Source: an uncultured Chthonomonas sp.
Lineage (GTDB): Bacteria > Armatimonadota > Chthonomonadetes > Chthonomonadales > CAJBBX01
Assembly (NCBI GenBank): GCA_903951425.1
Contig: CAJBBX010000067.1
Span: forward strand, 1 to 46,778
Direction: 5' to 3'
Length of the DNA stretch: 46,778 nt
A program made the position numbers and the translations under genes. This document shows, piece by piece, positions 5,568-40,593 of this stretch; position 1 is the first letter of the stretch, and every line of letters begins with the position of its first letter. A model generated the notes under the pieces. That model searched no databases. It had not been told where the DNA came from and worked only from the letters and a program-made list of their open reading frames with translations.

Positions 5568-5576
5568 AGCTCTCCT

Positions 5577-7952: not shown

Positions 7953-8055
7953 GTGAACATGGTACCGAATGTGGGCGCTCGCGCACGCAGAAAGTGGCGC
8001 GGTACCGTCGGAGTACGCCGCTGAGCCTGAGGCGCTGCTTGCCGGGGACCTGCAG

Positions 8056-8086: not shown

Positions 8087-8090
8087 CTGC

Positions 8091-16927: not shown

Positions 16928-16975
16928 CATCGTGCGCGTCCCATGGCCCTCCGAATGCGAGGCAGGTCAGAGCCC

Positions 16976-19163: not shown

Positions 19164-19186
19164 CCGCGTCGCCCAAAGTCTGTATC

Positions 19187-19210
19187 GGGGGCCGGCGATG
19201 CCCGGCCCCC
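19187..19210 (+). terminator. GC hairpin upstream of the DUF6067-like gene
   Basis: GGGGGCCGG, loop CGATGC, CCGGCCCCC: 9-bp stem 23 nt after the small membrane protein and 29 nt before the next ATG. No U-tract. It is an attenuator or processing-site candidate. Confidence 0.4.
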
Positions 19211-19239
19211 TCCGCCCATCAAGCGAGGATCGCCGCGCC

Positions 19240-24381: not shown

Positions 24382-24599
24382 TCCGCCCGGATGCGCCTAA
24401 TGCGACGCGAGCCCATGCGGTTGGCGGCATCGGCAGGGCTTGGCGTGACAGCGCGGGCCCGCGCACGCTTCATGCCTGATCCGAGCCACGGCTTCATCAT
24501 GCTCGCAGCCGGCGCTCACACGCGATCCCGCGCTCAGGAGTCGGTTACTGCGCCTGCCGCACCACAACGATGCGGGATGACCACACGAGGTACTCGCTA
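24382..24599 (+). promoter_or_regulatory. Largest gap in the cluster, with a palindrome and an operator-like motif
   Basis: This is the longest non-coding interval between 19.2 and 44.4 kb. It holds a perfect 14-bp palindrome GCGCGGGCCCGCGC (24451-24464) and CGGTTACTG (24542-24550), identical to nine bases of the lacI leader repeat. Both are reasonable regulator sites, but no promoter hexamers stand out. A 69-codon frame across the gap has no ribosome site and is not called. Confidence 0.3.
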
Positions 24600-27119
24600 A
24601 TGCTCACAGCCTTCATGTTGGCTCCGCTCATGGGCATGTCCTCTCCAGGCGCACAGGAGCCGCCGCTGCCCTTGCCCGGCGAGCGTTTCCATGTCGCGGG
24701 CCGACCGGCGTTCGTCATCCCACCCCAGGCGTCGGGCAAGCACCGCGCGGTCCCCTGGGTCTGGTACGCGCCCACGCTCCCCGGCCTTCCAGGCCCGGAA
24801 GAGAAGTGGATGTTCGAGCGGTTCACGCGGGCCGGCATCGCGGTGGCGGGCATCGACGTGGGCGAGTCCTACGGCAACCCTGCCGGCCGCAAGCTCTTCA
24901 CGGCGCTCTACACCGAGATGGTCAAGGTCCGAGGCTTCTCGCCCAAGCCGATCCTGTTCGGCCGGAGCCGCGGCGGCTTGATGACCATGAACTGGGCCGC
25001 CGAGAACCCGCGCAAGGTGGGCGGCTTCGCGGGCATCTACCCGGTGCTCGACCTGGCCAACTGGCCCGGCCTTCCCACCGCCGCACCGGCCTACGGGCTC
25101 ACGGCCGACGGACTGGCGGCATGCCTGACGGAGCACAATCCCGTGGACCGGCTGGCCGGCCTGGCCAAGGCGGGCGTGCCCCTCTTTGCGCTCCACGGCG
25201 ACCTGGACCAGATCACGCTGACCGCCAACTCGCAGCTCATGCTCCGGCGCTACGAGGCGCTGGGCGGACGCATGAGGCTGGTGGTGGCCCACGGGCAGGC
25301 CCACAGCATGTGGCAGGGCTACTTCCAGTGCCGCGAACTGGTCGACTTCGTCGTCGGCCGCGCCAACGAGTTGTCGCCCCCGGAGAGCGCCCGCCCGGCT
25401 CGCCGTAGCCGCACCGCCGACCCAACGTCCGGCGTCGGGCAGGTGCGGCCCTGGGCCGAGCGGCCCTTCACGTTCCTCAGCTATGCCGGCGACTGGTCGA
25501 AGTCCTACCAGCGCTTCGCCCACGAGTGCAAGGTTCAGGGCCTGCTGACGCCGACCTGGGAGGACCCTGCCTACCCGCACCCGCTGGAGTCCGCCGCCAC
25601 GGAGTGGGGCTGGAGCGTGGAGCCGCAGGGCGCCACCCGTCGCGAGTGCTACGACTGGATGCGCCGCCATTACCTTGAGAAGATCGCCCCGGCGCAGGCG
25701 ACCGGCCGGCCCTTCTACTCGCTGACGGGCCATGGCTTCTACTCGGTCTACGGCGCCCAGTGGGGCTGCGACATGCTGGGGCTTGAGACAGGCGAGAACA
25801 TCCTTGGCATGCAGGCGCAGATCGCCTTCCTGCGCGGCGCGTCCCGGCAGAACCGGCTTCCTTTCTATGTGCAGCCGTCGCAGTGGTTCGGCGGCACCGT
25901 GCCGATCTTCGCCGAGGGAGAAGAGGAGGGGACGCCCCACGCGCTGGACGAGGCGAAGGTGCGCGAGGGCATCTCCAAGGGCGGCATCGGCATCCCCAAC
26001 GGCGGCCACTCCTCGTCGCTGCTGTCGCGCATGTGGCATGTGGCATGGCTCGCCGGCGCGGCCATCGTCTGCCCCGAGGCCTGCCAGTCGATCTTCTTCA
26101 CCGGCGACCAGCGCGCCAACGAGGCGCTACCGCCCGAGCGCCGCATGGCGCTGTCGCCCATCGGCAAGCGGGCGCAGGGGTTCATGCGCCTGACCGACGC
26201 ACACCCCGATCGCGGCGTCCCTTGCACGCCCATTGCGGTGATGCTGGACCAGTACTGCGGCTTCAACGGCTTCCAGCTCACGCAGCCCCGACCGTGGGGC
26301 GTGCTGAAGCCGACGCTGGGCGACCGGGAGGTCTCGCTCTTCTTCAACACGATCTTCCCGAGGTCGCTCTGGCTCGATGTGCTTCCGGGCGTGGACGACG
26401 AGCAGGAGCAGTTCCGCCTGGTGCGCTCGCCCTACGGCGACACCGTGGATGTGCTGCTCTCCAACGCCTCGGATGACGTGATGCGGAGCTACCCGGCGCT
26501 GGCCCTGCTGGGCGATCAGGAGTTCCAGCCCGACCTGCTCGTGCGGCTGGCCGGGTACCTGAAGGCCGGCGGCAAGCTCGCCATCACCCATGCGCATGCC
26601 CGGCAGCTGGGCGAACGCTTGGCCGACCTTCGCCGATGCGGCACGGTGACCCTCTTCGGCCTGCGGCCCGAGGAGACGCCCGCCCAACTCGACACCGAGC
26701 GGTGGCTGACCCCCGCCCACTGGGGAGCCGACGCCGCCACGCTGGCCCGCCGTAAGGAAGGCTCCAGACTGCTCCCCTATGAGGCGCGCTTCGTGGACGA
26801 GGTGCATCGCCTGATGAAGGGGTGGTCCTCCGCGCTACTGCCTGTGCGGGTCTCGGGCGACGTGGAGTACCTGGTGAACCGCACGGCGTCGGGCTGGGTG
26901 GTCGGCTTGGTGAACAACCAGGGCGTGAGCAAGGGGATCATGTCACCGGTGCGTGTCGACCCGTCCGCCGCGCAGACCGTGACGGTGAAGCTCAAGTCCG
27001 GTCAGGCGATCTCGGCGGTGGAGTGGTGTACCGGCAAGCCCGTCGAGGTGCGTCGGGGCTCCATGACGGTGGAGGTGCCCCCCGGCGAAGTGCGCGTGCT
27101 CGCGGTGACGGGGCGCTGA
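24600..27119 (+). CDS. Esterase fused to a glycosidase-like/GATase-like module
   Basis: 839 residues from ATG 24600 (ACGAGG about 9 nt upstream) with a short signal-like start MLTAFMLAPLMGMSSPGAQE. Residues about 25-265 form an alpha/beta hydrolase: nucleophile S123 in FGRSRGG, acid D201 (or D203) in LHGDLDQ, and H235 in GQAHSMW. After a basic linker, residues about 290-839 belong to a family shared with the genes at 34480 and 38650: TGHG, ETGEN, GGHSSSLLSRMWHVAW, SPYGDTVDVLLSN, a flavodoxin-like SYPALALLGDQEFQPDLLVR fold, and LVNRTASGWVVGLVNNQGVS. Linking deacylation to a putative glycosidase suggests a substrate with ester-bound groups on the sugars. The catalytic residues of the second module are not known. 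Confidence 0.78.
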   Translation: MLTAFMLAPLMGMSSPGAQEPPLPLPGERFHVAGRPAFVIPPQASGKHRAVPWVWYAPTLPGLPGPEEKWMFERFTRAGIAVAGIDVGESYGNPAGRKLFTALYTEMVKVRGFSPKPILFGRSRGGLMTMNWAAENPRKVGGFAGIYPVLDLANWPGLPTAAPAYGLTADGLAACLTEHNPVDRLAGLAKAGVPLFALHGDLDQITLTANSQLMLRRYEALGGRMRLVVAHGQAHSMWQGYFQCRELVDFVVGRANELSPPESARPARRSRTADPTSGVGQVRPWAERPFTFLSYAGDWSKSYQRFAHECKVQGLLTPTWEDPAYPHPLESAATEWGWSVEPQGATRRECYDWMRRHYLEKIAPAQATGRPFYSLTGHGFYSVYGAQWGCDMLGLETGENILGMQAQIAFLRGASRQNRLPFYVQPSQWFGGTVPIFAEGEEEGTPHALDEAKVREGISKGGIGIPNGGHSSSLLSRMWHVAWLAGAAIVCPEACQSIFFTGDQRANEALPPERRMALSPIGKRAQGFMRLTDAHPDRGVPCTPIAVMLDQYCGFNGFQLTQPRPWGVLKPTLGDREVSLFFNTIFPRSLWLDVLPGVDDEQEQFRLVRSPYGDTVDVLLSNASDDVMRSYPALALLGDQEFQPDLLVRLAGYLKAGGKLAITHAHARQLGERLADLRRCGTVTLFGLRPEETPAQLDTERWLTPAHWGADAATLARRKEGSRLLPYEARFVDEVHRLMKGWSSALLPVRVSGDVEYLVNRTASGWVVGLVNNQGVSKGIMSPVRVDPSAAQTVTVKLKSGQAISAVEWCTGKPVEVRRGSMTVEVPPGEVRVLAVTGR

Positions 27120-27145
27120 GGCCGTGGGCAGGAGCGGTTGCCGCC

Positions 27146-29620
27146 ATGGGTGATCCGGGCCACAGCGGCACGCTGGCGAACCGGCGCCTGCGGCTCGACT
27201 TCAGTGATCGTGCGGGCCGTTGCGCCGCCGTCGCGCTGCACAACCACCTCTCCGGGCGGACGCTACCGCTGGACGAGGATGACTTCCGCATCGAGGCGGA
27301 GGGGTTACCCGCCCTCACGGCAGCGAGCTTCAGGTGGCTCAAGCCCGACTTCGCCGGCGAGCGGGCCCGCCTGGAGGGCTCGTGCGCCGAGCGGGGCGTG
27401 CGGATCGCCATCATCTATGAGCTGGGCGCGGGCGACTTCTTCGTTCGGAGGCGCTTGGAGCTGACGTCCGCCGCCCCCCTGCCCATCCGGCGCGTAGACG
27501 CCTGGACCGTGCGCGTGCCGGGCATCTGCTGGTCCCAGGAAGAGGGGCCGCCGGAAGAGCTCCGCATGAACGTCTGGGGCATCGACGACAAGTCCGGCTT
27601 CGGCAAGCCCGTGCTCATGGAGGACACGTTCTGGGGCCTCGAATACCCGGCGGGGCTGAACCAGTACCGGGACGGCCGGGTCACCCTCACGCACCGGCCG
27701 GGGCGCACGGTGTCGGGCCTGTTCCGGACTAAGCCGGCGGTGGTGGGCGTCGCCCCGTCGGGCGAGGCGGCGTTCTGGTTCCGCGACTATATCGAGCGGC
27801 TCCGACCGCAGCGCCGGACACCTGCAGTACACATCGACTACAACACATGGACCACGGTTACTCCGGCCACCGAGGCCAACAGCCTGGATCTGATCTCGAG
27901 GTTCCGGGCTTGCCTCTTCGATGCCCATGGCGTGGGGCTGGACAGCTTCACGCTAGACGATGGCTGGGACAAGAAGCGCAGCCTCTGGGACGTGGAAACC
28001 GGCGGCTTCCCGCGCGGGTTGGCGCCGCTGTCCGCGGCACTGGCGCCCACCGGCGCCCGCCTGGGCCTCTGGCTATCACCCTCCAGCGGCTACGAGCACG
28101 CCGGGTGGGGCTCCGAGCAGGGATGCGCCCGCAACGCCACGTTCGACTGGTTCCTCTGCCAGAGCGACCCCGGGTATCGCCGCGAGATGTGCCGGGCCAT
28201 CGTGGACCTGGTACGAGCCAACAACGTGGGCTTCCTGAAGATGGACGGCTTCTGCGCCTCCTGCGACACCGACCGGCACGCTCACCACCTGACCGGCGAC
28301 TATGCGCGGGAGGCCAACGTCGATGCGTTCATCGAACTGCTGGCCGCCATCCGCCAGGCCCAGCCCGACATCCATCTGGACCCGACCAGTGGCATGTGGC
28401 TCAGCCCCTGGTGGCTGCAGTACGTGGATTCGCTCTACTGCGATACGTACGACGGCACGGCGCCCGCCATCGTGCCGTCGCCCAATGGGCTGGACGGAGC
28501 GACCACCAGCCGCGATGCGCTCCTCCGGCGCCGCTTGGACGAGAACCCGGGGTTCGACCCCGCGGCCGTCGAGACGCTGGGCATCTACCTCGACCCGACG
28601 CTGACGGTGGACCCGGGCAGCTTCTTCGACAACTGGCAGGACAACGCCATGATGGTGGCGGGCCGGGGAAGCAGGCTGCTGACGATGTACATGAACCCGG
28701 ACCTGCTGCCGAACCCGGAGCAGGACTGGCGCTTTATGGCCGCCATGTTCCGCTGGGTGCGCCACAACGCCGATACGTTGGCGCGGTGCCGCCCCATCCT
28801 GGGCGACCCCTATGCGTGGGAGCCCTACGGCTACGCCCACTTCCGGGGCCGCCGGGGCATCACCGTCATGCGGAACCCCTTCATCGAGCCGCGCCGGGTG
28901 CGGCTGGAGTTGGGCCACTCGATGGGCTGGTCCGCCAACGAGGCCGGAGACGCCTGCTGCGCCGTGCGCGTGGTCTACCCCCACCGGGAGACGCTGGCCA
29001 CGGCGGTTTGCTTCGGTGACACGGTTGAAGTGACGCTGGAGGCGTACCAGCTGCTGCTGCTCCATGTGGAGGAGGGCGAGGAAGCCCTGCGCCCGCCCGC
29101 GCCGCGCGCGCGCGCGCCACGTATCGGCGATGCCCGCGCGGAGCCGCTCAGCCTCGTGCGCATGGCCGGCGCGGGTTTGCACCTCGCGGGGCAGTGCGCC
29201 ATATCGTCACCCGGAGGCTCGGATGCGTGGGTCTACGTCCTCCTCGCCGGCGACGCGGCGACCGAGACCTGGCGATGCGCGGTATCGGTGGACGGAGCGG
29301 CGGCGGAAGCAGCCGAGATCCGCAGTCCCACCGCGGCCTCGATCCCGGTGCATACCCGCCATGAGCTGCCATTCACACCCTGGGTGTTCCATCGGATACG
29401 TGTCCCCGGCGGGCGGCACGTCCTTGAGGTCGTCGTGGAGTGCGCCGCAGACGCGCAGACGGGCTCGACGCTACGGGCGGGCTGGTGGCTCTGGATGGAG
29501 CACCCGCTGGAGGCCACCGACGGCCATGCGTGCTCGGACCCGCTACCCTACTCATCCGGTGCCGGCACCCGGCGGCAGACGGTCACGCTTCAGGGCCTCA
29601 CGGAGTTCAACCTGCCATGA
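27146..29620 (+). CDS. GH36-like alpha-galactosidase family enzyme
   Basis: 824 residues from ATG 27146 (GCAGGAGC about 11 nt upstream); the frame is open further upstream, but that would overlap the previous gene by 300 nt. An N-terminal beta-sandwich (about 1-225) leads to a clan GH-D barrel: DYNTWTT, SFTLDDGWDKK, then GFLKMDGFC with likely nucleophile D367, and SLYCDTYDG with likely acid/base D433. After the barrel come a beta domain and a C-terminal carbohydrate-binding-like beta domain (about 660-824). No signal peptide is evident. GH36 and relatives release alpha-galactose or alpha-GalNAc. The motifs are divergent from classical alpha-galactosidase (KMDGF for KWDMN), so another alpha-linked sugar is possible. 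Confidence 0.78.
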   Translation: MGDPGHSGTLANRRLRLDFSDRAGRCAAVALHNHLSGRTLPLDEDDFRIEAEGLPALTAASFRWLKPDFAGERARLEGSCAERGVRIAIIYELGAGDFFVRRRLELTSAAPLPIRRVDAWTVRVPGICWSQEEGPPEELRMNVWGIDDKSGFGKPVLMEDTFWGLEYPAGLNQYRDGRVTLTHRPGRTVSGLFRTKPAVVGVAPSGEAAFWFRDYIERLRPQRRTPAVHIDYNTWTTVTPATEANSLDLISRFRACLFDAHGVGLDSFTLDDGWDKKRSLWDVETGGFPRGLAPLSAALAPTGARLGLWLSPSSGYEHAGWGSEQGCARNATFDWFLCQSDPGYRREMCRAIVDLVRANNVGFLKMDGFCASCDTDRHAHHLTGDYAREANVDAFIELLAAIRQAQPDIHLDPTSGMWLSPWWLQYVDSLYCDTYDGTAPAIVPSPNGLDGATTSRDALLRRRLDENPGFDPAAVETLGIYLDPTLTVDPGSFFDNWQDNAMMVAGRGSRLLTMYMNPDLLPNPEQDWRFMAAMFRWVRHNADTLARCRPILGDPYAWEPYGYAHFRGRRGITVMRNPFIEPRRVRLELGHSMGWSANEAGDACCAVRVVYPHRETLATAVCFGDTVEVTLEAYQLLLLHVEEGEEALRPPAPRARAPRIGDARAEPLSLVRMAGAGLHLAGQCAISSPGGSDAWVYVLLAGDAATETWRCAVSVDGAAAEAAEIRSPTAASIPVHTRHELPFTPWVFHRIRVPGGRHVLEVVVECAADAQTGSTLRAGWWLWMEHPLEATDGHACSDPLPYSSGAGTRRQTVTLQGLTEFNLP

Positions 29621-32364
29621 CGACCACCCGACGGCGCGGCATCGGGGCCGCGATCAGGCGCATTGGGGCCGGGCTCTTTGCCGCGGCGGCCATGGGCCTC
29701 AGCGGTTCGCAGGCCACGCCGGCCGTGAGTTCCGTGCGCGCCCAGCACCCCTTCGGGTGGGACCGGATCGGCGTGGAGGCCCGGCCCGGCGGCTTCTGGT
29801 GGTGGCTGGGCAGCAGCGTCAGCAAGCCCGAGATCTCCCGGCAGTTGCGCGTCCTGAAGGGGGCAGGCTTCGGCGCCATGCTCGTCTGCCCGCTCTACCC
29901 GTACAAGGACCCCGTCCTGCCCAGCATCCCGTACCTATCCGACCAGTGGATCGAGGTGTTCCGGCATACGCTGGAGGAGGGCCGCCGCCTGGGGATGCCC
30001 ATCGACATGACCATGGGCGGCGGCTGGCCCATGGGCGGACCGTGGGTGACGCGCGCCAACGCCGAGCGCGACTGGCGCTTCGAGACCCTCACCGTCAGCG
30101 TCGATGCCGCACATCCGTGTGTCGTGCAGGATGCGCCCGGCAAGGACCCCATCGAGTGCGTGACCGTCTGCCGCGACCTGAAGGGAGCCGATCCCGCCCT
30201 CGTCGTCGAGCCGAGCATGGTCGACGGCAAGCGCGCGTGGCCACTCCCGGCGGGGCAGTGGCAGGTTCTGGTGGTCCGCATGGGCTACACCAACTTCGAC
30301 GTCTACGTCGGCGGGCCTGGAGGCGTGGGACCCGTCATCGACTACTGGTCGCCGGCGGCGCTGGCCAACCTGGTTGAGCCGCTGGACCGCATGCTGGCCG
30401 CGCTACGCCCGCTGCGTCCGCGTGCCGCCTTCTGCGACTCCTATGAAGGCCGGCAGGGGACGACACCCGGCTTCCTGTCCGAGTTCCAAAGGGTGAACGG
30501 GTACGACTTGCGGCCCTACCTGCACCAGTTCCTCGCCGAGACCGGCACGCCCGAAAACGTCCGCCTGTGGCACGACTACCGGCAGGTCTGCGCCGGCCTG
30601 CATATCGATTTTGTGAGGCGATGGACGGCGTGGGCGCGGGGCAACGGGATCACCACGCGGTACCAGTACATGGGCGACCCGGCCAACCCCGTGGATACCT
30701 CTATGCAGGCCGGCATCCACGAGGACTCGGCGCCGTTCAGCTCCTCGGCGGCGCACCTGGCCGGGCATCGGCTGGTCTCCCACGAGACGTTCACCTGGGG
30801 CGCCGGGCAGAACTTCATCGGCTCGCTCGACTGGTTCCGCAAGCGCGGCGACGGCGACATCCTGGCCGGCACGAACCACATGGTCTACCACGGAGTGCCC
30901 TTCACGCCTGCCGCGGAGCCCTGGCCGGGCCCCATGTACTACGCCGGGGGCAACTTCAGCGAGACGCAGCCCTGGTTCCCGCACATACGGAGCCTGAACG
31001 ACTACTTCGCGCGGCTGCAGCACCTGAGCCAGTCGGCCGAGCCGGACCCCGACGTGCTGGTGATCTGGCCCGAGCACGACATGTGGAACAAGCCCAACCT
31101 GGGGGGCTTCAAGTGGGGCCAGCCCTTCGTCTGGCGCAACACCAACTCGGGCCTCGAGCGACCCACCGCGGCCATGTCCGCCCTCTTCGAGGCGATGGCC
31201 GGGAGCGGGATCCGGTATGACATCGGCTCGGACCGCCTGATCTGCGAGCAGGCGCGCGTGGCCAAGGGACGCCTCCGCGCCGGCAGGATGACCTACCGCG
31301 CCCTGGTCCTGCCCGATGTGGAGGCGATGAGCGCGCGAGCCATCGCCCGGATGGAGCAGCTGGCCCGACAGGGCGCCACGATCGTCTTTGTCGGCCGCAT
31401 TCCCTCCGCGGCGCCGCACGGGTTGCCGCTGGTCCAGGAGACCTCGGCCGCCTCGGCAGGGCTTCGAAGCCTGGCGGCGGCCGGCGCCGGTGCTGTCCTG
31501 CTCGCGAAGCCCGAGGACGCACCGCGATGGCTCGCGGCCCACGGCCTGCGGACCGAGGGGACACCCGGTGTGCTCACCCTCTGGCGCGGTCGGCTCGGCG
31601 GCGATGCGATCTACTTCGTGAAGAACCAGACGAACCAGGCGCAGGGGCTCTGGGTGCCGCTGGCCCGCTCCGGTCGGACTGCGTGCGTGGGCAACCCGCG
31701 CACGGGGCAGGTCGCTTCCGCCGCCGTGCGCTCGCGTCCGGGCGGCGGGTCGCTGGTGCGCCTGTCGCTGCAGCCCACCGAGATGCTCACCATTCGCCTG
31801 AGCGCCAAGCCGCTGCCCGACGCCCCCGTCCAGCCCGAGGCCGAGCCTGCCGAGGTCCGCCCGTTGGCGGCGGCCTGGCGCATGGCCTGGACGGACACCG
31901 ACGGCCGGCCGCAGACCCGCTCCATCACCGGCCTCAAGTCGTGGACCGAGTGGCCCGACCTGGAGCTATTCAGCGGGGTGGTCACCTACACAACCGAGTT
32001 CGACCTGTCCGCCGGCGACGCCCGCCAACGGTGGCTGCTCAACGTGGGTGAGCTCCGCGAGTCCGCCGCTGCGACCCTCAACGGGCGGCGACTGGGCGAC
32101 CTCTGGACGACACCCTTCCAGGTCGACCTGACGCCCGCGCTGCGGCCCGGCCGCAACCGGCTGTCGCTGGCCGTGGCCAACCTGGCGCAGAACCGCGTGG
32201 TCGGGCTGGTACGCCGGGGCGGGCCGTGGCAGAAGTGGAACCTTGAGGAGAACGACTTCCAGGGCTACTGTGGGCCACTGCGCCTGAGCAGCCTGACGCC
32301 GCTGCCCTCGGGACTGCTTGGCCCCGTGACACTGCTCCGCTTCGCGCAGGTCCGCGGGAAGTGA
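29617..32364 (+). CDS. GH106-like alpha-L-rhamnosidase
   Basis: 915 residues starting at ATG 29617, which overlaps the upstream stop in ATGA, so translation is coupled. A basic start and hydrophobic segment (MTTTRRRGIGAAIRRIGAGL, then FAAAAMGLSG) suggest export. The opening of the mature part, PGGFWWWLGSSVSKPEISRQ, with LKGAGFGAMLVCPLYP, and the DMTMGGGWPMGGPW motif are characteristic of GH106. CDSYEG and HETFTWGAGQN carry conserved acids, and a C-terminal jelly-roll (about 780-890, LNVGELRESAAATLNGRRLG) follows. GH106 enzymes invert alpha-L-rhamnosides of pectins and other glycans. Residue-level roles are not assigned here. It is preceded by GH36-like and followed by a six-hairpin enzyme, so a side-chain-trimming role is plausible. 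Confidence 0.8.
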   Translation: MTTTRRRGIGAAIRRIGAGLFAAAAMGLSGSQATPAVSSVRAQHPFGWDRIGVEARPGGFWWWLGSSVSKPEISRQLRVLKGAGFGAMLVCPLYPYKDPVLPSIPYLSDQWIEVFRHTLEEGRRLGMPIDMTMGGGWPMGGPWVTRANAERDWRFETLTVSVDAAHPCVVQDAPGKDPIECVTVCRDLKGADPALVVEPSMVDGKRAWPLPAGQWQVLVVRMGYTNFDVYVGGPGGVGPVIDYWSPAALANLVEPLDRMLAALRPLRPRAAFCDSYEGRQGTTPGFLSEFQRVNGYDLRPYLHQFLAETGTPENVRLWHDYRQVCAGLHIDFVRRWTAWARGNGITTRYQYMGDPANPVDTSMQAGIHEDSAPFSSSAAHLAGHRLVSHETFTWGAGQNFIGSLDWFRKRGDGDILAGTNHMVYHGVPFTPAAEPWPGPMYYAGGNFSETQPWFPHIRSLNDYFARLQHLSQSAEPDPDVLVIWPEHDMWNKPNLGGFKWGQPFVWRNTNSGLERPTAAMSALFEAMAGSGIRYDIGSDRLICEQARVAKGRLRAGRMTYRALVLPDVEAMSARAIARMEQLARQGATIVFVGRIPSAAPHGLPLVQETSAASAGLRSLAAAGAGAVLLAKPEDAPRWLAAHGLRTEGTPGVLTLWRGRLGGDAIYFVKNQTNQAQGLWVPLARSGRTACVGNPRTGQVASAAVRSRPGGGSLVRLSLQPTEMLTIRLSAKPLPDAPVQPEAEPAEVRPLAAAWRMAWTDTDGRPQTRSITGLKSWTEWPDLELFSGVVTYTTEFDLSAGDARQRWLLNVGELRESAAATLNGRRLGDLWTTPFQVDLTPALRPGRNRLSLAVANLAQNRVVGLVRRGGPWQKWNLEENDFQGYCGPLRLSSLTPLPSGLLGPVTLLRFAQVRGK

Positions 32365-32377
32365 ACGGAGGCAACCC

Positions 32378-34453
32378 ATGCGCCTGACACGCCGCCACCT
32401 CGTGCAAGCCGCCGCCGGCCTCGGCGCAGGCGCGAGCCTGCCGGCGCCGGCCCTCGACACCGGGCCTGAACCCGAGCCGGAACTGGCCGCGCAGGAGGTG
32501 ACCGACGACCGCCATCGCTGGCGGGTCACGGTCTCGCCGTCCGAGGGCATGGCCTCCCTGGGCCTCGACTCCGAGGGCGGCGGCCGCGACAAGACCAACC
32601 TGCTGGCGGGCCCTGTGCGCCTGCTCTGGTCCGGGCACGCCGCAGGCGCGGCGACCTGGACGCAGGTCGCGCCGGATGCCTGGTCAGGCCGAATGCCGGC
32701 CGCGGGTTCGCGTCCTGGGATCGAGTGGAGCATCTTCCGCGATGGCCAGGACCTCGTCTGGCGTTTCACCGTCGAGGTCGGCGGGCCGGGTCTGCTGACG
32801 GTGGAGGCGCCCTTCAACGCGCTGGTCGCCCCGGCGGTGGTGGTCCCGGCGCAGCTATCGGCCGACCACGCCGGGGCGCCGCCGTGGCTGCTCATCGCGC
32901 CCGACTTCGGGCACCTGCGGATCAGCGCCTCGCCCGAGGGCGCCTGGACGGCCCTGATGGACGGCGTCCGGGGTGGCTCCGCCCAGAACGCGCCCATCAC
33001 CGGCGTCGACCCGCGCCTCCGGGGCCAGGCCTGGCTCGAGGCCTCCAAGATCACGGTGTACCGCCCGGGCCTGCTCACGCTCTCGCTCCGGTGCGTTGTG
33101 CCCGGCAACGCGGGCGGCGCCTTCGAGGTGCGCTTCCGGCCCGAGGCCATCGCCGCGCCAGCCGGGCTGGACGCCGAGACGTGGGCGAAGATACGCCGGC
33201 CCTACCTGAACCACTGGCAGCCCTGCGGCACCTGGTGCGGACCCGAGCGCACCATGCTGCTGGCGAACAACGTGTTGTCGGACCCGGCGTCGATCTCGCT
33301 CTGGAGCTACTCCGAGCCCATGCTGTTCCTGCCCGAACCGGTCCCCGGCATCGACCTGCGCGTCCTCCTGCGGCGGTCGCTGGACTACTACCTGGACGAG
33401 CAGACCAGCGCCCAGGGCCATGTGAACGCCTTTGGCAAGATGTACGACCTGTATGTCAGCACCGGCGCCACGCTCCTCATCGCCGCGTGGGACTACTGGG
33501 TCCTGAGCCGCGACGAGGCCTGGCTGCGCCGGCATATCGACCGCCTCCACCTCATCGCCGACTACCTGCTGCGCCGTGACGTGGACGGCGACGGGCTGGT
33601 CGAGAGCTACGGCAGCGGCAACGCCGGGAGCCTCCGCGACCCCGACCGGGCCGACATCTGGTTCGAGATGATGAACTTCGGCCACAAGAACACGTGGACG
33701 AACTGCCTCGCCTACCGCGCCTTCCTCTGCCTCGCCGAGATGCTGGAGGCCGCCGGCAACGCGGGCGGCGCCGGGCACTACCGGGACAGCGCGCAGCGGC
33801 TGCGCCAGGAGTACGTCCGCCGGTTCCTGAGCGCCAGGAGCGGGTGGTTCGTCAGTTGGATCAGCATGGACGGCCGCGTCCACGACTACTGCCACACCTT
33901 CATCAACGGCATGGCAGTCGCCTACGGCATGGTTCCGCCGGAGCAGGGACGGGTCATCCTGTCGCGTGTGGCTGCCAAGTCGCGCTCAATCGGCTTCGAG
34001 CGCTGGGAGCTGGGCATCCCGGCCAACCTTCTCCCCTGCCGCCGGGCCGACATGATCCTGCCGCCGCTGGGTTCGGACGGCCAACCGGTGAAGGACCACT
34101 GGGGGCACTGGCCCAAGGGCATGACCGAGAGGAGCGGCTTCGGCCACAGGTACCCCAACGGCACCCTCCACCCGGCCCTGACCTGGCACTACCTCCTTGG
34201 TCTGCAGGTGGCCGGCATGGACGCTGAGGCCGACCGAATCCTTTCGGCCATGGTGCGGTCCGCGCAGAAGGGGATTTTCCAGAACGGGATCGTCAACGTC
34301 GGCTATGGCGGCGCCGAGCACTTCTATATCGACGGCATGACATGCGGCTATGAGGGCTACCTGCCCGAGAGCTACAACTTCCTTATGGCGTGCTTCACGC
34401 GGGACGCCGTCCTGCGCGAGACGCTGCTGCGGCCACTGGCCGCGCGGGCATGA
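32378..34453 (+). CDS. Six-hairpin glycosidase-like protein, copy 1
   Basis: 691 residues. MRLTRRHLVQAAAGLGAGAS is a plausible signal, with an RR pair that could be read as Tat. CGGAGG lies 7 nt before the ATG, 14 nt after the GH106-like gene. A beta-sandwich (about 40-270) precedes an (alpha/alpha)6 barrel: NHWQPCGTWCGPERTMLLAN, then RRDVDGDGLVESYGSGNAGS near 399-418, GHKNTWTNCLAYRAF, and a later GRVHDYCHTFINGMAVAYGM. The DGDGLVES segment is the signature loop of six-hairpin glycosidases (GH63, GH78, GH95 and GH116 relatives). It is a clear paralogue of the gene at 40594. The exact family and substrate are unknown. Confidence 0.72.
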   Translation: MRLTRRHLVQAAAGLGAGASLPAPALDTGPEPEPELAAQEVTDDRHRWRVTVSPSEGMASLGLDSEGGGRDKTNLLAGPVRLLWSGHAAGAATWTQVAPDAWSGRMPAAGSRPGIEWSIFRDGQDLVWRFTVEVGGPGLLTVEAPFNALVAPAVVVPAQLSADHAGAPPWLLIAPDFGHLRISASPEGAWTALMDGVRGGSAQNAPITGVDPRLRGQAWLEASKITVYRPGLLTLSLRCVVPGNAGGAFEVRFRPEAIAAPAGLDAETWAKIRRPYLNHWQPCGTWCGPERTMLLANNVLSDPASISLWSYSEPMLFLPEPVPGIDLRVLLRRSLDYYLDEQTSAQGHVNAFGKMYDLYVSTGATLLIAAWDYWVLSRDEAWLRRHIDRLHLIADYLLRRDVDGDGLVESYGSGNAGSLRDPDRADIWFEMMNFGHKNTWTNCLAYRAFLCLAEMLEAAGNAGGAGHYRDSAQRLRQEYVRRFLSARSGWFVSWISMDGRVHDYCHTFINGMAVAYGMVPPEQGRVILSRVAAKSRSIGFERWELGIPANLLPCRRADMILPPLGSDGQPVKDHWGHWPKGMTERSGFGHRYPNGTLHPALTWHYLLGLQVAGMDAEADRILSAMVRSAQKGIFQNGIVNVGYGGAEHFYIDGMTCGYEGYLPESYNFLMACFTRDAVLRETLLRPLAARA

Positions 34454-34479
34454 GGCCAACGGAAAGCGAGGACGAGGCG

Positions 34480-36537
34480 ATGACCGAACCGAAAGCCGCA
34501 CCGCCGCAGGTCTGGGTGCGGCCCGTCAACCCCGAGGAGTACCCCGGCTTCTCGTCGCGACGCGCGACGCCCGTGACGCGGGCCGACCTGGGGAACCGGT
34601 TCCACACCGTGGGGCTCCGTGGCTTTGAGTTCGACCGCGCGCCCGCGCCGCCGCCGGAGAGCTTCCGCATCGTCAAGCTCAAGGAGACGCTGGACCTCTG
34701 GACGCGGAGCTTCGACTTCGGCGATATCGTCTGGCCCATGTGGCCCTGCTTCTACGCCGAGAACTGGCGCGAACTGGTCGACGAGCTGGCCGCGCGCGAG
34801 CTATACCTCTTCGATATCTGGGCCTACTGCCCATCGGGCGTGCTGGAGAAGTACGAGTGGTCCGAGTACCAGGCCTCCGACGAGCTCCACGCCACGCTGC
34901 TGGAGAAGCTGGGGCCGCGCTTCCTGGGCTACGACAACGGCGAGCAGGACGGCCGGTACATCGGCAACTATGCCAAGCAGGTCTGCCCCGCGCCCATGAC
35001 CCGCCGGGAGGGATACGAGGCGTTCAAGCAGTACTTCGACCAGCTAGGCAACGACCTGCACAACTACCTGGTCGCACTGAACAGCCTCACCTACCCGCAC
35101 ACCTTCGCAGCGTGGGATAACCACAGGATGATCGGCACCGAGAGCGCGCAGGCCCTCCCCAGCGTGCCTATGTGGTACGCCTTCGTGCGCGGCGCGGGCA
35201 AGCAGTACGGGCTGCTCTGGTTCGGCAACGCCAGCGTCTGGAACCGGTGGGGCGCCAAGTCGCTGGCCGACCCCGAAGCCGAGGATACCGATGCGCCGGG
35301 CTTCCGCACCGGTCCCACGGCGGGTACCAGCCTGAGCCTGCTCAAGCGCATGTGGTACGTGCTGGTCATGTACGGCAGCGTCATCATGGGCTTCGAGGCG
35401 GGCCATATGCGGCACACCCACCCGGCCATCGGGACCACGGAGCCAGGCCTGCCGCAGGAGCCGACGGAGATCGGGCAGATCCAGCTCGACGGCACGCGCT
35501 GGTGCGCCAAGCACCCCGACCGCGGCCAGCAGCACACGCCCGTGGCGCTACTCTGGGATGTCCACGCAGGCTGGGCGCCCTCGCGGCACCTCTACACGTC
35601 GGACACCTACCTGGTCTGGGGCAACATGCCCTACGAGAAGGGCGACCACCAGATCGACCTCCTCTTCCGTGAGCTCTACCCGCACTACGAGGACGCCGGC
35701 TTCTGCCACAACGAGCGCGGCTTCCTCACCGCCACGTCATGCGGCGACAGCTTCGACGTGCTCCTCTCCGACGTGAGCGCCGACGTGCTGTCGCGCTACC
35801 CGCAGGTGGTCGTTCTGGGCGAGACGCGACTGGAGGGGGAGCTACTGGCCAGGCTGCAGGCCTATGCGGAGGCCGGGGGAAGCGTGATCGCCTGGGCCGA
35901 CCACCTGGGCGATGGCGCCGCCGACCTCTTCGGCGTGTCGGTGGGCGAAGGCGCCACGGCAAACCACGCGATCATCCCGGGCCACCCGTGGACCGTCAAT
36001 GAGCCGGCCTACTCCTACCGCCGCCTGGAGCCCGCCGTCGGTGTCGAGGTCCTGGCATCCACTCGCCAGGGCGCGGCGCTGGCCGTTCGGCGCTCGATGC
36101 CCGGCGGCGGCTCCTGTACGCTTTTCGCCTCGGAGTACGGCCTGAGCAACCCGCTGCCGGCAGCCGACCGGATCGTCAACGAGGTCGACCAGCCGCTCCT
36201 CTCACCCTACGCGATGCTGGAGCACGTGAAGGCCATCCTCCTGCCGATGCTCCGTTCGTACAGTCTTGTCGAAGTCGAGGGGCTACCCATCCAGTACATC
36301 GTGAACGTGGATGAGCGGACCGACCGCCTCGTAGTCACCCTATGCAACAACACGGCAGAGGCGTGGCGCGGTGTCGTGCGGCCGAAGGGGGCCACAGTCG
36401 TGTCAGGTTCCAACTGGATGACCGGCGAAGCGTTGCCGGCAGGGGATGCGGCGACCCTGACGGTTCAGCCGCTCGACGTTGTGGTGGTCGAGCTCCTCCT
36501 GGATCGGCCCGTCTTCCTCGCGCGAGGTATCGCATGA
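34480..36537 (+). CDS. Glycosidase-like TIM barrel plus GATase-like protein, copy 2
   Basis: 685 residues from ATG 34480, with GCGAGG 8 nt upstream; an ATG at 34450 overlaps the previous stop but lacks a ribosome site. No signal peptide. The N-terminal 350 residues look like a (beta/alpha)8 barrel (ELYLFDIWAYCPSG, HTFAAWDNHRMIGTESAQAL, QYGLLWFGNASVWNRWG, SLLKRMWYVLVMYGS). A flavodoxin/GATase-like domain (about 420-530, SFDVLLSDVSADVLSRYPQV, VVLGETRLEGELLARLQAYA) and a beta C-terminus (EGLPIQYIVNVDE) follow. The same order and motifs occur in the genes at 24600 (second module) and 38650. This is the plan of GH42-like and DUF4434-like enzymes, but I cannot name the family. It is probably cytosolic. 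Confidence 0.7.
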   Translation: MTEPKAAPPQVWVRPVNPEEYPGFSSRRATPVTRADLGNRFHTVGLRGFEFDRAPAPPPESFRIVKLKETLDLWTRSFDFGDIVWPMWPCFYAENWRELVDELAARELYLFDIWAYCPSGVLEKYEWSEYQASDELHATLLEKLGPRFLGYDNGEQDGRYIGNYAKQVCPAPMTRREGYEAFKQYFDQLGNDLHNYLVALNSLTYPHTFAAWDNHRMIGTESAQALPSVPMWYAFVRGAGKQYGLLWFGNASVWNRWGAKSLADPEAEDTDAPGFRTGPTAGTSLSLLKRMWYVLVMYGSVIMGFEAGHMRHTHPAIGTTEPGLPQEPTEIGQIQLDGTRWCAKHPDRGQQHTPVALLWDVHAGWAPSRHLYTSDTYLVWGNMPYEKGDHQIDLLFRELYPHYEDAGFCHNERGFLTATSCGDSFDVLLSDVSADVLSRYPQVVVLGETRLEGELLARLQAYAEAGGSVIAWADHLGDGAADLFGVSVGEGATANHAIIPGHPWTVNEPAYSYRRLEPAVGVEVLASTRQGAALAVRRSMPGGGSCTLFASEYGLSNPLPAADRIVNEVDQPLLSPYAMLEHVKAILLPMLRSYSLVEVEGLPIQYIVNVDERTDRLVVTLCNNTAEAWRGVVRPKGATVVSGSNWMTGEALPAGDAATLTVQPLDVVVVELLLDRPVFLARGIA

Positions 36538-38585
36538 CCGGAGAACGTTTCCAGTACATCCTACGCTGCACCATCGAGCCCGGGCACCACGAGGAGGAGC
36601 GCCTCGATAGCCTCGTCGCGTTCTGCACCGATGCCACCATCGACGACGTGATGCTCTTCATCCTTGGCGAGGAGCTTAATACCGGGCACCCTACGATGGC
36701 TGAGATCGAGCCCTGGATGCAGTTCATCGCCAGAGCCAAGGCGCGCCTGGCAGAGATAGGGGTGACCACCTCCATCAACCCCTGGGCGACGCTCCTCCAC
36801 GCCGACCGAGGCCGCATGCTCAAGCCGGGGCAGGCGTTCGAGCGCATGGTCGACCCTACGGGGCGACAGGCAGGGGCCGTCGCGTGCCCGCTGTGCCCCG
36901 CCTGGCTCGACTACATAGCGGAGACCTACCGCCGCTACGCCCAGGTTCAGCCGTCGGCGCTGTGGGTCGAGGATGACTTCCGCCTCCACAACCATGCCCC
37001 GCTTGCCTGGGGCGGCTGCTTCTGCGAGAGGCACATGGTCGAGTTCAGCCGCCTGGCAGGCCGTAGGGTCGAGCGCGACGAGTTCGTCCGGGCGGCGCTG
37101 CGTCCCGGCGCGCCGCATCCCTACCGGAGCCTCTGGCTCCAGGCAGCCCGGGACGCCATGGTGGCGGCCGCCACTCGGATCGGCGACGCGGTCCATTCCG
37201 TCTCTCCGAAGACGCGTGTCGGCCTGATGAGCTCCGATCCGGCGGTCCACTGCGCCGAAGGGCGGAGCTGGGAGGGCATCCTCCGAGCGCTCGCGGGGCC
37301 CACAGCTCCGCTCCTTCGTCCCAACCTCCCGGCCTACAGCGATACGCCGCCGCAGCAGTACCTGTGGGGGCTAAGCGCCGCCTCACGCCAGTGTGCCGCC
37401 TTTGTACCGGGCGACACAGACCTGCTCCCGGAGGTGGAGAACTCGCCCTACCCCCGGTTCTCGAAATCGAACCGGTTCGTAGCCTTCCAGGTCGAGACAT
37501 CGGCCCTGCTCGGCTCGGCCGGCATCACGATGAACCTGTTCGACATGATGGGGAATGGAGTGCTGAACTCCGAACGGTACCAGTACACACTGGCATCCAT
37601 TCGCCCGTTCGTCGACCGCCTGCATGCGCTGGGGCTGCGATCGGCCCGCGCGACCGGTGTGCAGGTGATGGTATGTCCGGGATCGTCATGGACGCTGCGT
37701 ACCCAGCACGGCCGGTCGATGGCAGAGCTGTACCCGTCGGAGACGTTCTGGGCAGGCCTGCTGACAGCCTATGGCATCGCCAACGCCTTCTGCACTGACG
37801 GGAAGCCGGACCAGCCCGCCGTCGCCGTCTCGGGCCAGTACGTGCGGAACCTTGGTCCGGACGCCGTCGCCGCCCTCTTTGCGCGGTCCGTAGTCTTGCT
37901 CGACGGTGATGCGGCTGACACGCTTTGCGATATGGGTCTCGGCCACCTCGCGGGCATTGAGAAGCTGGAGTGGATCGATCAGGGCAACGGCCGGTGTTCC
38001 TACGAGCAGGTGGTGGACGGCCGGCGCTATCTCGGCATCTCCGGGGCGCGGGCCTCGTGCCAGAACCTTGCCGGCGACGCGGCCGCGATCAGCTATGGAC
38101 CCGGAGCTGAGCATCTGACACAGGTATGCGGCCCCGAGGGACGCAACGTCTGCCCCGGGGTCACGCTCGTGCGCACCCCATCTGGAGGTCAGGACGGCTC
38201 CCAGAGGCACGTCGTGGTCTGGCCGTACGGCAGGTTCGGGGGGCGGCCGCCGGGCCAACTGAACCCCATCCGGCAGGCGGTACTGCAGGAGCTGCTGTGG
38301 CGAACCATGGGCGCCTCTGCACCGACGATGGTGACGGACGACCCGCACATCGGTCTCTTCACGTTCTCCATGCAGGACCGCCGCGTGATCCTGCTCGTGA
38401 ACGGTTCGGGCGACGACCTTGCAGCCGTCCGTATCCGGGGCGCCGGCATCCGGCCTGACGGCGCCTACGAGTTGTGTCGTGATGTACCGACACCGGTACG
38501 GGGCACACTCGTCGACGAAGGGCCATGCGTGGTCGTGCGGAGCGGCCTGCGCAACATGGAGACCAAGGCCCTTGTGCTCGCTTGA
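36534..38585 (+). CDS. TIM-barrel protein of unknown family
   Basis: 683 residues. The start ATG 36534 overlaps the upstream stop in ATGA and has GAGGT 5 nt upstream. No signal peptide. The N-terminal 400 residues look like a (beta/alpha)8 barrel: VMLFILGEELNTGHP, GVTTSINPWATLLHADRGR, then SALWVEDDFRLHNHAPLAWG with a cysteine pair GCFCERH just after it, and GSAGITMNLFDMMGNG on a late strand. A GATase-like domain (about 400-520) and a beta C-terminus (VILLVNGSGDDL) follow. E/D residues in WVEDDF could be catalytic. The CxC-H arrangement could bind metal. I do not recognise the family. It lies between two members of the family also at 24600. Confidence 0.65.
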   Translation: MTGERFQYILRCTIEPGHHEEERLDSLVAFCTDATIDDVMLFILGEELNTGHPTMAEIEPWMQFIARAKARLAEIGVTTSINPWATLLHADRGRMLKPGQAFERMVDPTGRQAGAVACPLCPAWLDYIAETYRRYAQVQPSALWVEDDFRLHNHAPLAWGGCFCERHMVEFSRLAGRRVERDEFVRAALRPGAPHPYRSLWLQAARDAMVAAATRIGDAVHSVSPKTRVGLMSSDPAVHCAEGRSWEGILRALAGPTAPLLRPNLPAYSDTPPQQYLWGLSAASRQCAAFVPGDTDLLPEVENSPYPRFSKSNRFVAFQVETSALLGSAGITMNLFDMMGNGVLNSERYQYTLASIRPFVDRLHALGLRSARATGVQVMVCPGSSWTLRTQHGRSMAELYPSETFWAGLLTAYGIANAFCTDGKPDQPAVAVSGQYVRNLGPDAVAALFARSVVLLDGDAADTLCDMGLGHLAGIEKLEWIDQGNGRCSYEQVVDGRRYLGISGARASCQNLAGDAAAISYGPGAEHLTQVCGPEGRNVCPGVTLVRTPSGGQDGSQRHVVVWPYGRFGGRPPGQLNPIRQAVLQELLWRTMGASAPTMVTDDPHIGLFTFSMQDRRVILLVNGSGDDLAAVRIRGAGIRPDGAYELCRDVPTPVRGTLVDEGPCVVVRSGLRNMETKALVLA

Positions 38586-38649
38586 GGTAGGCGCCGGCAG
38601 GGCGGCCAGGCTGATCGCGTGCCTGGCAACAGCAATTGGAGGTGTCATT

Positions 38650-40593
38650 GTGGGTATGGAGGCAACGGGCGCAGGGCTCGACAACAGGGCGCCCGCCGCG
38701 GCCAGGGCGGGGGATGCGCCCGCCGCGGCCAGGGCGGGGGATGCGCCCGCTGTATCCCGCCTGCTCCCGCGCGGCCGGATCGCCGATCCCCTGTACGCCG
38801 GCCTGGCGGCGGGTCCACTGCGCGTTCGCCTGCTCAAGGGCACCCAGTCGCCAGCTTTGAGCCACTACGCGGTGGCGAGCGGCGCGTCGATCCAGAACCT
38901 GATCGCCCACGCCAAGCGCACCGGGATCGGCGGCTCGTGGCTGATCATGGGCGGCGCGGGCCGTGCAGCCTACGACGAGTACTTGGCTACGGGTTGCCCG
39001 GTAGTGGTGTCGCAGTTCGTCGTGCCCGTCAACGAGAAGCGGCTGGATGACGACCCGGCGCACGCCGAGGAGGTCCGAAGGGCCACCGCCGCGGCGCCGG
39101 GGTACTTCTCGTACCTCATGGCCGAGTGGGAGAACTACGTCTGGGCTTGGTGGACGACCGTCGACCCAAAGCCCACGCTGGGCAAGACGGATGCGGAACT
39201 GCGGGCGATGGACCGGCGAGGCCACTACGACGCGGTCATCGCGGCCCTGCGCGAGTGGAAGCGCCGCGCCGGCGGGCACCTGTCGCTCATGACCGGGCAC
39301 GGTCTCCAGAGCCATGTGGCCGAGATCGGGATCGATGCGGTCTGCATCGAGACCTCTGAGAACATAGCGGCGACGCAGGTGAAGAGGGCCTACTGCCGGG
39401 GCGCCGCACGCCAGTTCGGCATCCCGTGGACGGAATCGGTGTCGGTATGGTTCGGCCCTTCGTTCACGGCGCCCAACCGCGTTGCCAAGACCAATCCCGC
39501 GTGGGAAGGGGTCGCCATCGGCGGCGAGGCCGGCCACTCGCTAAGTCACATGGAACGGATGTGGCACACATCGTGGTTTGCCGGCGCGGCCGACGTCAAC
39601 CAGGAGACGTCGACGCAACTGCTCTTCGAAGACCAGGCTGACATGACAGGCTTCCGGCCCGAGCCGACGCTGTCCCGGTTTGGCGAGGCGGCCGACCGGT
39701 TCTGCCGGCGTATGCGCTCGATCAACGTCGGCGTCCCGTACACACCGTTCGGCGTGATCGTCCGCAAGGACCATGGGCGATGGACCAACTGGAGCGATCC
39801 CTGGGGGCGGTACCCGCAGACCCTCGGTGACAAGCTCACCGGCCGGTTCTTCGACCAGCTCTTCCCGGGGCAGTCGAAAGGGCCCGGCGACGAGGAGCGC
39901 TACCTATGCCCGTCTCCCTACGGCGATACGTTCGACGTGCTCGTCGCGGATGCCGACCGATCGGCGTGGGGCGCCTACCCTGTGCTGATCGCCGTCGGCG
40001 ACGTGCCGTGGACCCCGGACGACATCCGTGAGCTCACCGAACACGCCAGGCGCGGCGGGGTGGTCGTGCTGCACGAGGTGAACACGAAGGGCTGTGACAG
40101 GGAACTGATCGGGCTCCAGACGGACGGGTTCCAGGCGGCTGGACGCGCGGAGGTGGCGCTCAAGCGCCTAGACGGCTCACCGGCCCTGATCAAGCGCAAG
40201 CTGGGCAAGGGTTGGGTGTTCGTGGTCGGGACAGGGCCGTCGGAGGCCGAGGCCTGCGCCATACCCGACGCGCTCCTGGGCGAGCTGGCGCGGCGTTACC
40301 TGCCGTTCGAGGTGACCGGCGAGGTCCAGACGCTGATCAACCGCACGCCGGACGGGTGGCTGATGCTGCTGGTCAACAACGGCGGCATCAGCAAGAAGTT
40401 CACCCAGCGCGAGGCGATCGATCCGGCCTGCACAGCGCCGGTTCGTATCCGCATAGCCGGCGGCAAGCCGCGCGTCGAGGAGCTGATGCAGGGCGGCGCC
40501 GTGCCGACGGAGGCGGTGCGCGGCGCACGCTCGTGGGATGTGCGGCTCAGCGTCCCGCCCGGCGAGATGCGCCTGCTGCGGATCGGCGAGTAG
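38650..40593 (+). CDS. Glycosidase-like TIM barrel plus GATase-like protein, copy 3
   Basis: 647 residues from GTG 38650, preferred because GGAGGTG ends 5 nt upstream; ATG 38656 is the alternative. The frame before it reads VGAGRAARLIACLATAIGGV, signal-peptide-like, but has no ATG, GTG or TTG (only GTA 38587 and CTG 38611). The protein matches the second module of the gene at 24600: SLMTGHG, IETSENIAATQ, GEAGHSLSHMERMWHTSWFA, SPYGDTFDVLVAD, TLINRTPDGWLMLLVNNGGI. The barrel is about 60-420, the GATase-like fold about 440-530, and the beta domain at the end. An alanine-rich repeat occupies the start. The function is unknown; glycosidase-like is inferred from fold and company. Confidence 0.68.
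   Translation: MGMEATGAGLDNRAPAAARAGDAPAAARAGDAPAVSRLLPRGRIADPLYAGLAAGPLRVRLLKGTQSPALSHYAVASGASIQNLIAHAKRTGIGGSWLIMGGAGRAAYDEYLATGCPVVVSQFVVPVNEKRLDDDPAHAEEVRRATAAAPGYFSYLMAEWENYVWAWWTTVDPKPTLGKTDAELRAMDRRGHYDAVIAALREWKRRAGGHLSLMTGHGLQSHVAEIGIDAVCIETSENIAATQVKRAYCRGAARQFGIPWTESVSVWFGPSFTAPNRVAKTNPAWEGVAIGGEAGHSLSHMERMWHTSWFAGAADVNQETSTQLLFEDQADMTGFRPEPTLSRFGEAADRFCRRMRSINVGVPYTPFGVIVRKDHGRWTNWSDPWGRYPQTLGDKLTGRFFDQLFPGQSKGPGDEERYLCPSPYGDTFDVLVADADRSAWGAYPVLIAVGDVPWTPDDIRELTEHARRGGVVVLHEVNTKGCDRELIGLQTDGFQAAGRAEVALKRLDGSPALIKRKLGKGWVFVVGTGPSEAEACAIPDALLGELARRYLPFEVTGEVQTLINRTPDGWLMLLVNNGGISKKFTQREAIDPACTAPVRIRIAGGKPRVEELMQGGAVPTEAVRGARSWDVRLSVPPGEMRLLRIGE
38689..38750 (+). repeat. 27-bp in-frame tandem repeat
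   Basis: A 27-bp unit occurs exactly twice (38689-38715 and 38716-38742) with 8 more bases of a third copy. It encodes APAAARAGD twice plus APA, in the N-terminal linker of the protein at 38650. A length-variable linker by replication slippage is likely. Confidence 0.85.

Follow-up and report, generated by a model that had tools for sequence, protein, structure and literature searches.

A glycosidase-like family with three paralogues in one Chthonomonas gene cluster and a possible remote relationship to GH98

We analysed a 46,778-nucleotide stretch of DNA from an uncultured Chthonomonas sp., a lake bacterium of the Armatimonadota (assembly GCA_903951425.1, contig CAJBBX010000067.1, positions 1 to 46,778, hereafter the window), in which an original prediction had placed three paralogues of a glycosidase-like family in one cluster. 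The family is real, unnamed and probably enzymatic, where unnamed means that it has no model in Pfam (2025), NCBIfam (June 2026) or PHROGs, CAZy and dbCAN lying outside this comparison. Its three members in the window, which we call G1, G2 and G3, are arranged as follows.

24570-27119, + strand: G1, whole open reading frame (ORF), 849 aa, in two modules, the second from about 25440
24570-25439, + strand: G1 module 1, an alpha/beta hydrolase (esterase-like) whose GxSxG motif reads GRSRG, with an apparent Sec signal peptide
25440-27119, + strand: G1 module 2, family member by profile match, with barrel, GATase-like and C-terminal beta domains, 31% identical to G3
34480-36537, + strand: G2, family member, ATG start, 685 aa, 29% identical to G1, with an AlphaFold2 (AF2) model
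38650-40593, + strand: G3, family member, probable GTG start at 38650, with an AF2 model

BLAST comparisons confirm that G1 module 2, G2 and G3 are paralogues, with similarities beyond chance (E 1e-12 to 3e-49). G1 module 2 is 31% identical to G3 over 523 aa (E 3e-49) and 29% identical to G2 over 342 aa (E 3e-24), while G2 and G3 share 26% identity over 257 aa (E 1e-12). The count of three is correct for the window, but the whole genome (6.08 Mb) holds seven members. The set of motifs by which the copies had been recognized does occur in the same order in all of them, although several of the proposed spellings fail in single copies: E-[TS]-x-[EAS] fits G3 (ETSE) and G1 (ETGE) but not G2 (ESAQ), ARQ/GKQ is found in G3 and G2 but is SRQ in G1, and RMWxxxW is kept in G1 and G3 but not in G2 (RMWYVLV). 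GDxxDVL is found as spelled in G1, G2 and G3. A third conserved acid, on strand 4 of the barrel, was missing from that list.

By eye, a signal peptide is apparent in G1 and G3, and none is seen in G2. For G3, an earlier start carrying the signal peptide is a possible alternative to the GTG at 38650; its N-terminal part also contains a GC-rich direct repeat of tandem APAAARAGD copies (38690-38755). Module 1 of G1 resembles Pfam Hydrolase_4 (E 9e-6) and Peptidase_S9 (E 2e-4), both narrowly under the cut-off, and its fusion to the family module is present in sister genomes (L020, L024 and L038 in our numbering of loci) and absent from the Poribacteria homologues L037 and L040. It is plausible that G1, G2 and G3 differ in bond specificity. 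Their ancient divergence (below) and the lack of a signal peptide in G2, as opposed to G1 and G3, fit different roles and are no test of specificity.

Scans of Pfam and NCBIfam gave no family for the barrel of G1-G3, nor for that of 32 members from several phyla (alignment A2). The GATase-like and C-terminal domains of G1-G3 alone produced matches, all of them sub-threshold (Glyco_hydro_42M, GLMA_2nd, Melibiase_C). Searches of PHROGs, of the PDB by single sequence and of the viral contigs of IMG/VR retrieved no match to the family. Furthermore, when a profile of the 32 members was compared with PDB chains, matches started only at the strand-8/GATase region, and the chains concerned were GH42, GH164, a beta-1,2-glucosyltransferase and a mannanase/mannosidase with a GH42-type trimer. 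The earlier claim that no named glycoside hydrolase (GH) family fits thus stands as far as barrel models in Pfam and NCBIfam go, and none of the libraries searched places all three proteins in an established family. The barrel also has conserved acids where its strands end (below), and neither outcome named beforehand as a refutation came about.

Structure prediction yielded confident models for G3 (38749-40590; predicted local distance difference test, pLDDT, 83.5; predicted template modelling score, pTM, 0.91) and G2 (pLDDT 89.5, pTM 0.92). Both consist of a barrel, a GATase-like domain and a beta domain, so that the GATase-like and C-terminal beta domains announced from the sequence are seen in both. 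The nearest folds are GH164 and GH42. In the VIA comparison the best match of the G3 model was GH164 (Z 21.5, root-mean-square deviation (rmsd) 4.5, 485 aligned), with GH42 at Z 18-20, the GH106 enzyme RHA-P at Z 15.9 (450 aligned) and GH98 chains at Z about 15 (rmsd 4.0-4.3, about 385 aligned). The G2 model gave Z 18.2 for GH42, 17.7 for GH164 and 14.8 for GH98. Absence from a list of fold matches was never used to exclude a family.

In the G3 model (residue 1 corresponding to window position 38749), barrel strands 1-8 end at about residues 41, 68, 88, 124, 180, 203, 232 and 285. Candidate catalytic acids are predicted at the ends of strands 4, 6 and 8, and all three glutamates were confirmed in the G1, G2 and G3 sequences. 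In a local-pair alignment of 65 members, no acid is better conserved than the strand-6 residue (G3 201; Glu in 61/65), the strand-8 residue (G3 286) is Glu in 56/65 and the strand-4 residue (G3 126) in 52/56. A lower figure for E126 (18/28) was discarded as an artefact of the first MAFFT alignment, in which the strand-4 region of G2 was out of register. Other conserved positions are Arg217 (65/65), Trp234 (62/65) and Arg270 (61/65). The end of strand 7 reads S-x-W in nearly all members and has no conserved acid. Among members with Gln at strand 8 (L006, L016, L029, L030, L166, L167), several carry a Glu two residues on (TMQETEP), and the base of this subgroup may have shifted along the strand. 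The glutamates are located as follows.

25602-25604, + strand: G1 strand-4 Glu (TEWG; E55 of module 2), proposed catalytic acid, from alignment A2
25785-25787, + strand: G1 strand-6 Glu (LETGEN; E116 of module 2), from alignment
26076-26078, + strand: G1 strand-8 Glu (VCPEAC; E213 of module 2), proposed base, from alignment
34942-34944, + strand: G2 strand-4 Glu (NGEQDGR; E155), proposed catalytic acid, from model and alignment
35140-35142, + strand: G2 strand-6 Glu (GTESAQ; E221), from model and alignment
35395-35397, + strand: G2 strand-8 Glu (MGFEAG; E306), proposed base, from model and profile alignment
39124-39126, + strand: G3 strand-4 Glu126 (AEWEN), proposed catalytic acid, from model and conservation (52/56)
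39349-39351, + strand: G3 strand-6 Glu201 (CIETSEN), from model and conservation (61/65)
39604-39606, + strand: G3 strand-8 Glu286 (NQETS), proposed base, equivalent to Sp4GH98 Glu301, from model, profile alignment and conservation (56/65)

A search of Armatimonadota with PF08306 found a few GH98-like proteins (L125-L128). As a group they match Sp4GH98 by profile (E 6.5e-9), and they have in common with the family the pattern helix-G-x-x-x-x-WG, S-x-Q-x-W, (P/S)..R and the strand-8 Glu. When the barrel and linker of the family were compared with these proteins, the result was P 1e-4 to 5e-4 (probability 31-57%) with G2 as reference and P 9e-4 to 3e-3 (probability 10-23%) with G3 as reference. 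As controls, reversed GH98-like profiles gave P 0.19 or worse, and the GH42, GHL6 and GH106 barrels, forward or reversed, P 0.019 or worse. Full-length comparison with the GH98-like group reached P 1e-7 to 9e-10, partly via the C-terminal domain, and likewise aligned the strand-8 Glu. The matching segment extends from the helix that follows strand 6 as far as the linker that follows strand 8. Within it, G3 Glu286 falls on the strand-8 Glu of the GH98-like proteins, which is chain index 293 of 2WMF. Index 150 is Ala in 2WMG and Glu in 2WMF and 2WMH, which fits an E158A mutant with an offset of 8; since index 150 is Glu158, index 293 is therefore Glu301 of Sp4GH98. In RgGH98 the general acid is Glu411 (PMC8730463), and the title of structure 9H6G reads 'inactive ... 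E361A'.

L125-L128, together with L132 and L133, are Armatimonadota proteins at the edge of Pfam GH98M, some with long repeat-like N-terminal parts, and judging by their sequences they are possibly a GH98 subfamily. Proteins of this kind are rare (8/201 genomes, three of them by a short C-terminal match alone), and the genome of the window has no PF08306 match. For the other candidate relatives of the barrel, PF02449 (the GH42 barrel) matches neither G1-G3 nor the A2 members and PF17132 (GH106) matches none of G1-G3. GHL6 was rejected by profile; GHL6 and GH42 match in the GATase and C-terminal parts alone.

The remaining genes of the cluster are the following.

16907-17950, + strand: LacI-type regulator, first gene of the cluster (Pfam LacI and Peripla_BP_3)
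19099-22254, + strand: GH123-type protein (Pfam GH123_N, 1227 bits)
22258-24381, + strand: GH20-type protein (Pfam Glyco_hydro_20b and Glyco_hydro_20)
27146-29620, + strand: melibiase-like glycosidase (Pfam Melibiase, sub-threshold, E 0.0026), start inferred from sequence
29617-32364, + strand: GH106-type alpha-L-rhamnosidase (Pfam Glyco_hydro_106, E 2e-42), its start overlapping the previous stop (ATGA)
32378-34453, + strand: six-hairpin glycosidase, GH78-like (Pfam Bac_rhamnosid6H, E 8e-6)
36534-38585, + strand: unnamed neighbour X between G2 and G3, 683 aa
40594-42534, + strand: second six-hairpin glycosidase, GH78-like (Pfam Bac_rhamnosid6H, E 3e-8)
42531-43550, + strand: URO-D family protein (Pfam URO-D, E 3e-17)
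43623-44417, + strand: xylose-isomerase-like TIM barrel protein (Pfam AP_endonuc_2, E 1e-20)

The order is therefore LacI, GH123-type, GH20, G1, melibiase-like, GH106, six-hairpin, G2, X, G3, six-hairpin, URO-D and xylose-isomerase-like, and neighbouring genes overlap by four bases (ATGA) at 29617, 36534 and 42531, which suggests a single operon. In a sister genome (G002, contig C28) the order G1, GH106, G2, X, G3 is repeated with like spacing. By eye, most glycosidases around G1 and G3 have a signal peptide and X has none. X, for which Pfam, NCBIfam and the PDB gave no match, is found in the same place in sister genomes (89-96% identity) and, at 54% identity, in another Armatimonadota family; it represents a further unnamed family, which is probably catabolic. 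URO-D genes lie near family members in three loci (window 42531-43550, L034:13094-14098 and L051:6149-7219). The whole genome contains 34 GH106 and 24 GH42 match pieces, a very large glycosidase set for 6 Mb.

A role in glycan breakdown is supported by this glycosidase operon, by the carbohydrate-binding modules found on homologues (LamG, F5/8C, NPCBM) and by a homologue from the gut bacterium Phocaeicola massiliensis (L178:5479-8361, OY725999.1). The latter (960 aa; 34% identity to G2, E 1e-101; motifs NGEQDG, GAETAQ and VGFEGS) is encoded directly downstream of a TonB receptor (SusC) and SusD. This arrangement is that of a polysaccharide utilisation locus and provides independent support for the glycan role. 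The same protein carries a C-terminal xylose-isomerase-like barrel, and the next gene encodes HZS_alpha and FGE-sulfatase domains. Apart from the cluster, the window contains type I restriction-modification-like genes on the - strand (961-8279), with an HsdR-type protein at 5577-8279 (Pfam) and, by eye, ORFs that resemble HsdM (at 3990), HsdS (at 2779), an AAA ATPase (at 961) and an HNH protein (at 279).

The family was found at 26 loci of the named genome collection, in Armatimonadota, Hydrogenedentes, Verrucomicrobiota, Poribacteria, Clostridia, Lentisphaerota, Planctomycetota and one Bathyarchaeota contig. Within Armatimonadota, 143 of 291 genomes matched, mostly in the GATase region alone, the barrel being covered in about 30 (as read from the match table). 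A tree of 64 members splits into two main clades, G2 belonging to one and G1 and G3 to the second. Beyond the genus, G3 is closest to proteins of Hydrogenedentes and Verrucomicrobiota (44% identity), G1 to proteins of Poribacteria and G2 to those of other Armatimonadota. These placements imply that the copies are old; a recent tandem duplication was rejected, G2 lying in the other main clade and each copy having closer kin elsewhere. An Akkermansiaceae metagenome-assembled genome encodes a tandem pair (L055:5015-8206 and L055:8210-11356) without the strand-6 and strand-8 glutamates, one of the two being fused to a xylose-isomerase-like barrel. It is possible, on sequence grounds, that this pair has lost activity or acquired a new function.

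We propose, with belief and doubt evenly balanced, that G1-G3 belong to an unnamed glycoside hydrolase family that is remote kin of GH98, has a GH42/GH164-type three-domain body and is inverting, with an acid on strand 4 and a base on strand 8. Homology, model fold, conservation of the three glutamates and glycan context were computed, and from them we infer residue roles, stereochemistry and substrate. The strand-4 Glu (G3 E126, G2 E155, G1-module E55) would be the general acid, while the strand-8 Glu (E286/E306/E213), as the equivalent of Sp4GH98 Glu301, would be the base that activates water. The strand-6 Glu (E201/E221/E116) would assist this base, standing in for GH98 Asp251, and hydrolysis would proceed by inversion. 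G3 and G1, the latter with its esterase-like fusion partner, would work outside the cytoplasm and G2 would be cytoplasmic, the three attacking different linkages of one rhamnose- and N-acetylhexosamine-containing heteropolysaccharide.

Several observations weigh against this proposal. The barrel-only GH98 signal is weak, leaving strands 1-6 unaligned with a probability of at most 57%, and Pfam GH98M (PF08306) matches none of G1-G3 or the 32 A2 members. GH98 Asp251, at the end of strand 7, has no acidic counterpart in the family, and Asp251 and Glu301 are residues that we take to be the bases of Sp4GH98, only their positions fitting here. The fold scores of GH164 and GH42 exceed those of GH98, partly through the common middle domain. 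The strand-8 Glu is absent from 9/65 members, six of which have Gln. Confidence in the G3 model is low around strand 4 (pLDDT 50-70), the strand-4 Glu of G1 is aligned in A2 but missed by the larger alignment, and the acids were placed by strand position in the models.

The top fold scores of GH164 and GH42, with all three domains aligned, would suit a retaining clan GH-A enzyme of the GH42/GH164 type whose nucleophile has moved, with the strand-4 Glu serving as acid/base and the Glu of strand 6 or of strand 8 as nucleophile. Indeed, from strand 8 to the C-terminus the family matches GH42 by profile (P 1.7e-12), which relates the middle and C-terminal domains, and a lentisphaeral subfamily has Asn-Glu at strand 4 (FNEWG), the clan GH-A signature. 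However, the S-x-W end of strand 7 offers no acid, and profile comparison limited to the barrel finds no relation to GH42 (P 0.02 to 0.3), for which reason GH42 was rejected as its sequence relative; we regard a retaining mechanism as unlikely. A lower probability still goes to an inverting enzyme closer to GH106, in which strand 4 would provide the acid, strand 6 the base, and the strand-8 Glu would bind substrate or metal. This would agree with the alignment of RHA-P to the G3 model over 450 residues, with the rank of the strand-6 Glu as the most conserved acid, with the GH106 gene of the same operon and with BT_0986, whose acid is E461 and whose base is E593 (PMC6828813), presumably a like strand-4/strand-6 pair. 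Yet the family barrel has no profile match to GH106 (P 0.1 to 0.24), which led us to reject that barrel as a sequence relative, and the GH106 residues were assigned to strands by eye, not from coordinates.

That these proteins bind carbohydrate or regulate, with a glycosidase fold and no catalysis, appears highly improbable: the acids are kept across many lineages of several phyla, an Arg is invariant (65/65) and the neighbouring genes encode catabolic enzymes, even if many relatives with barrel and GATase domains are uncharacterised and the two Akkermansiaceae members (L055) lack two of the acids. Finally, and compatibly with any mechanism, the family may already have a recent CAZy number or name, since the comparison covered Pfam, NCBIfam and PHROGs, and some CAZy families have no model in the first two. 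We consider this rather doubtful, as neither NCBIfam of June 2026 nor Pfam of 2025 has a model and RefSeq names an Aureibacter homologue solely for its type IX secretion system (T9SS) tail.

Somewhat more tentatively than the mechanism itself, we suggest that this is a new GH family joining a GH98-derived core, its acids rearranged over strands 4, 6 and 8, to a GH42-type three-domain body, and spread over Armatimonadota, Verrucomicrobiota, Lentisphaerota, Planctomycetota, Poribacteria, Bacillota and gut Bacteroidota. If true, it would link two enzyme groups treated as unrelated. The family is in any case widely distributed and unnamed, so that glycan-degrading capacity is being overlooked in lake and gut bacteria. 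The Phocaeicola homologue beside SusC/SusD offers a cultured organism for functional testing. If the GH98 link holds, it would tie the GH98 core to the GH42/GH164 body and show catalytic acids moving between barrel strands.

Comparison with known systems places the family under none of GH98, GH42, GH164 or GH106, because it lacks a defining feature of each. With GH164 (Bs164 beta-mannosidase, whose retaining pair is presumably on strands 4 and 7) it shares the three-domain body and the top fold score for G3 (Z 21.5), but identity is 12%, the strand-7 nucleophile is absent and the barrel has no sequence match. With GH42 (beta-galactosidase, arabinopyranosidase) it shares the three-domain body with a GATase-like domain between barrel and beta domain, for which the Pfam GH42M match of G3 stays sub-threshold, but it lacks the strand-7 nucleophile Glu. 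Catalysis in GH42 and GH164 uses strands 4 and 7, whereas the conserved acids of the family lie on strands 4, 6 and 8, and the machinery therefore differs. GH106 (alpha-L-rhamnosidase), which is inverting, likewise continues from its barrel into further domains (Z 15.9 with 450 residues aligned). The family has acids on strands 4 and 6 that might correspond to the GH106 acid and base, in a comparison covering the acids of a site that in GH106 also holds calcium. GH98, whose enzymes hydrolyse beta-1,4 galactosides or xylan in an endo-acting, inverting manner, comprises blood-group endo-beta-galactosidases and an endo-xylanase (Sp4GH98, RgGH98, BoGH98). Its strand-4 acid (E158 in Sp4, E411 in Rg) is matched by the family strand-4 Glu by strand position, not by sequence alignment, whereas the strand-8 Glu (E301 in Sp4) has its counterpart by profile alignment, as do the S/W motif after strand 7 and the segment from strand 8 to the linker. 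One family homologue carries NPCBM (CBM51), a module type also present in GH98 (CBM51 of Sp3GH98). The family differs from GH98 in its extra conserved strand-6 Glu and its GATase-like domain, and overall it is most like a GH98-type catalytic core set on a GH42-type body.

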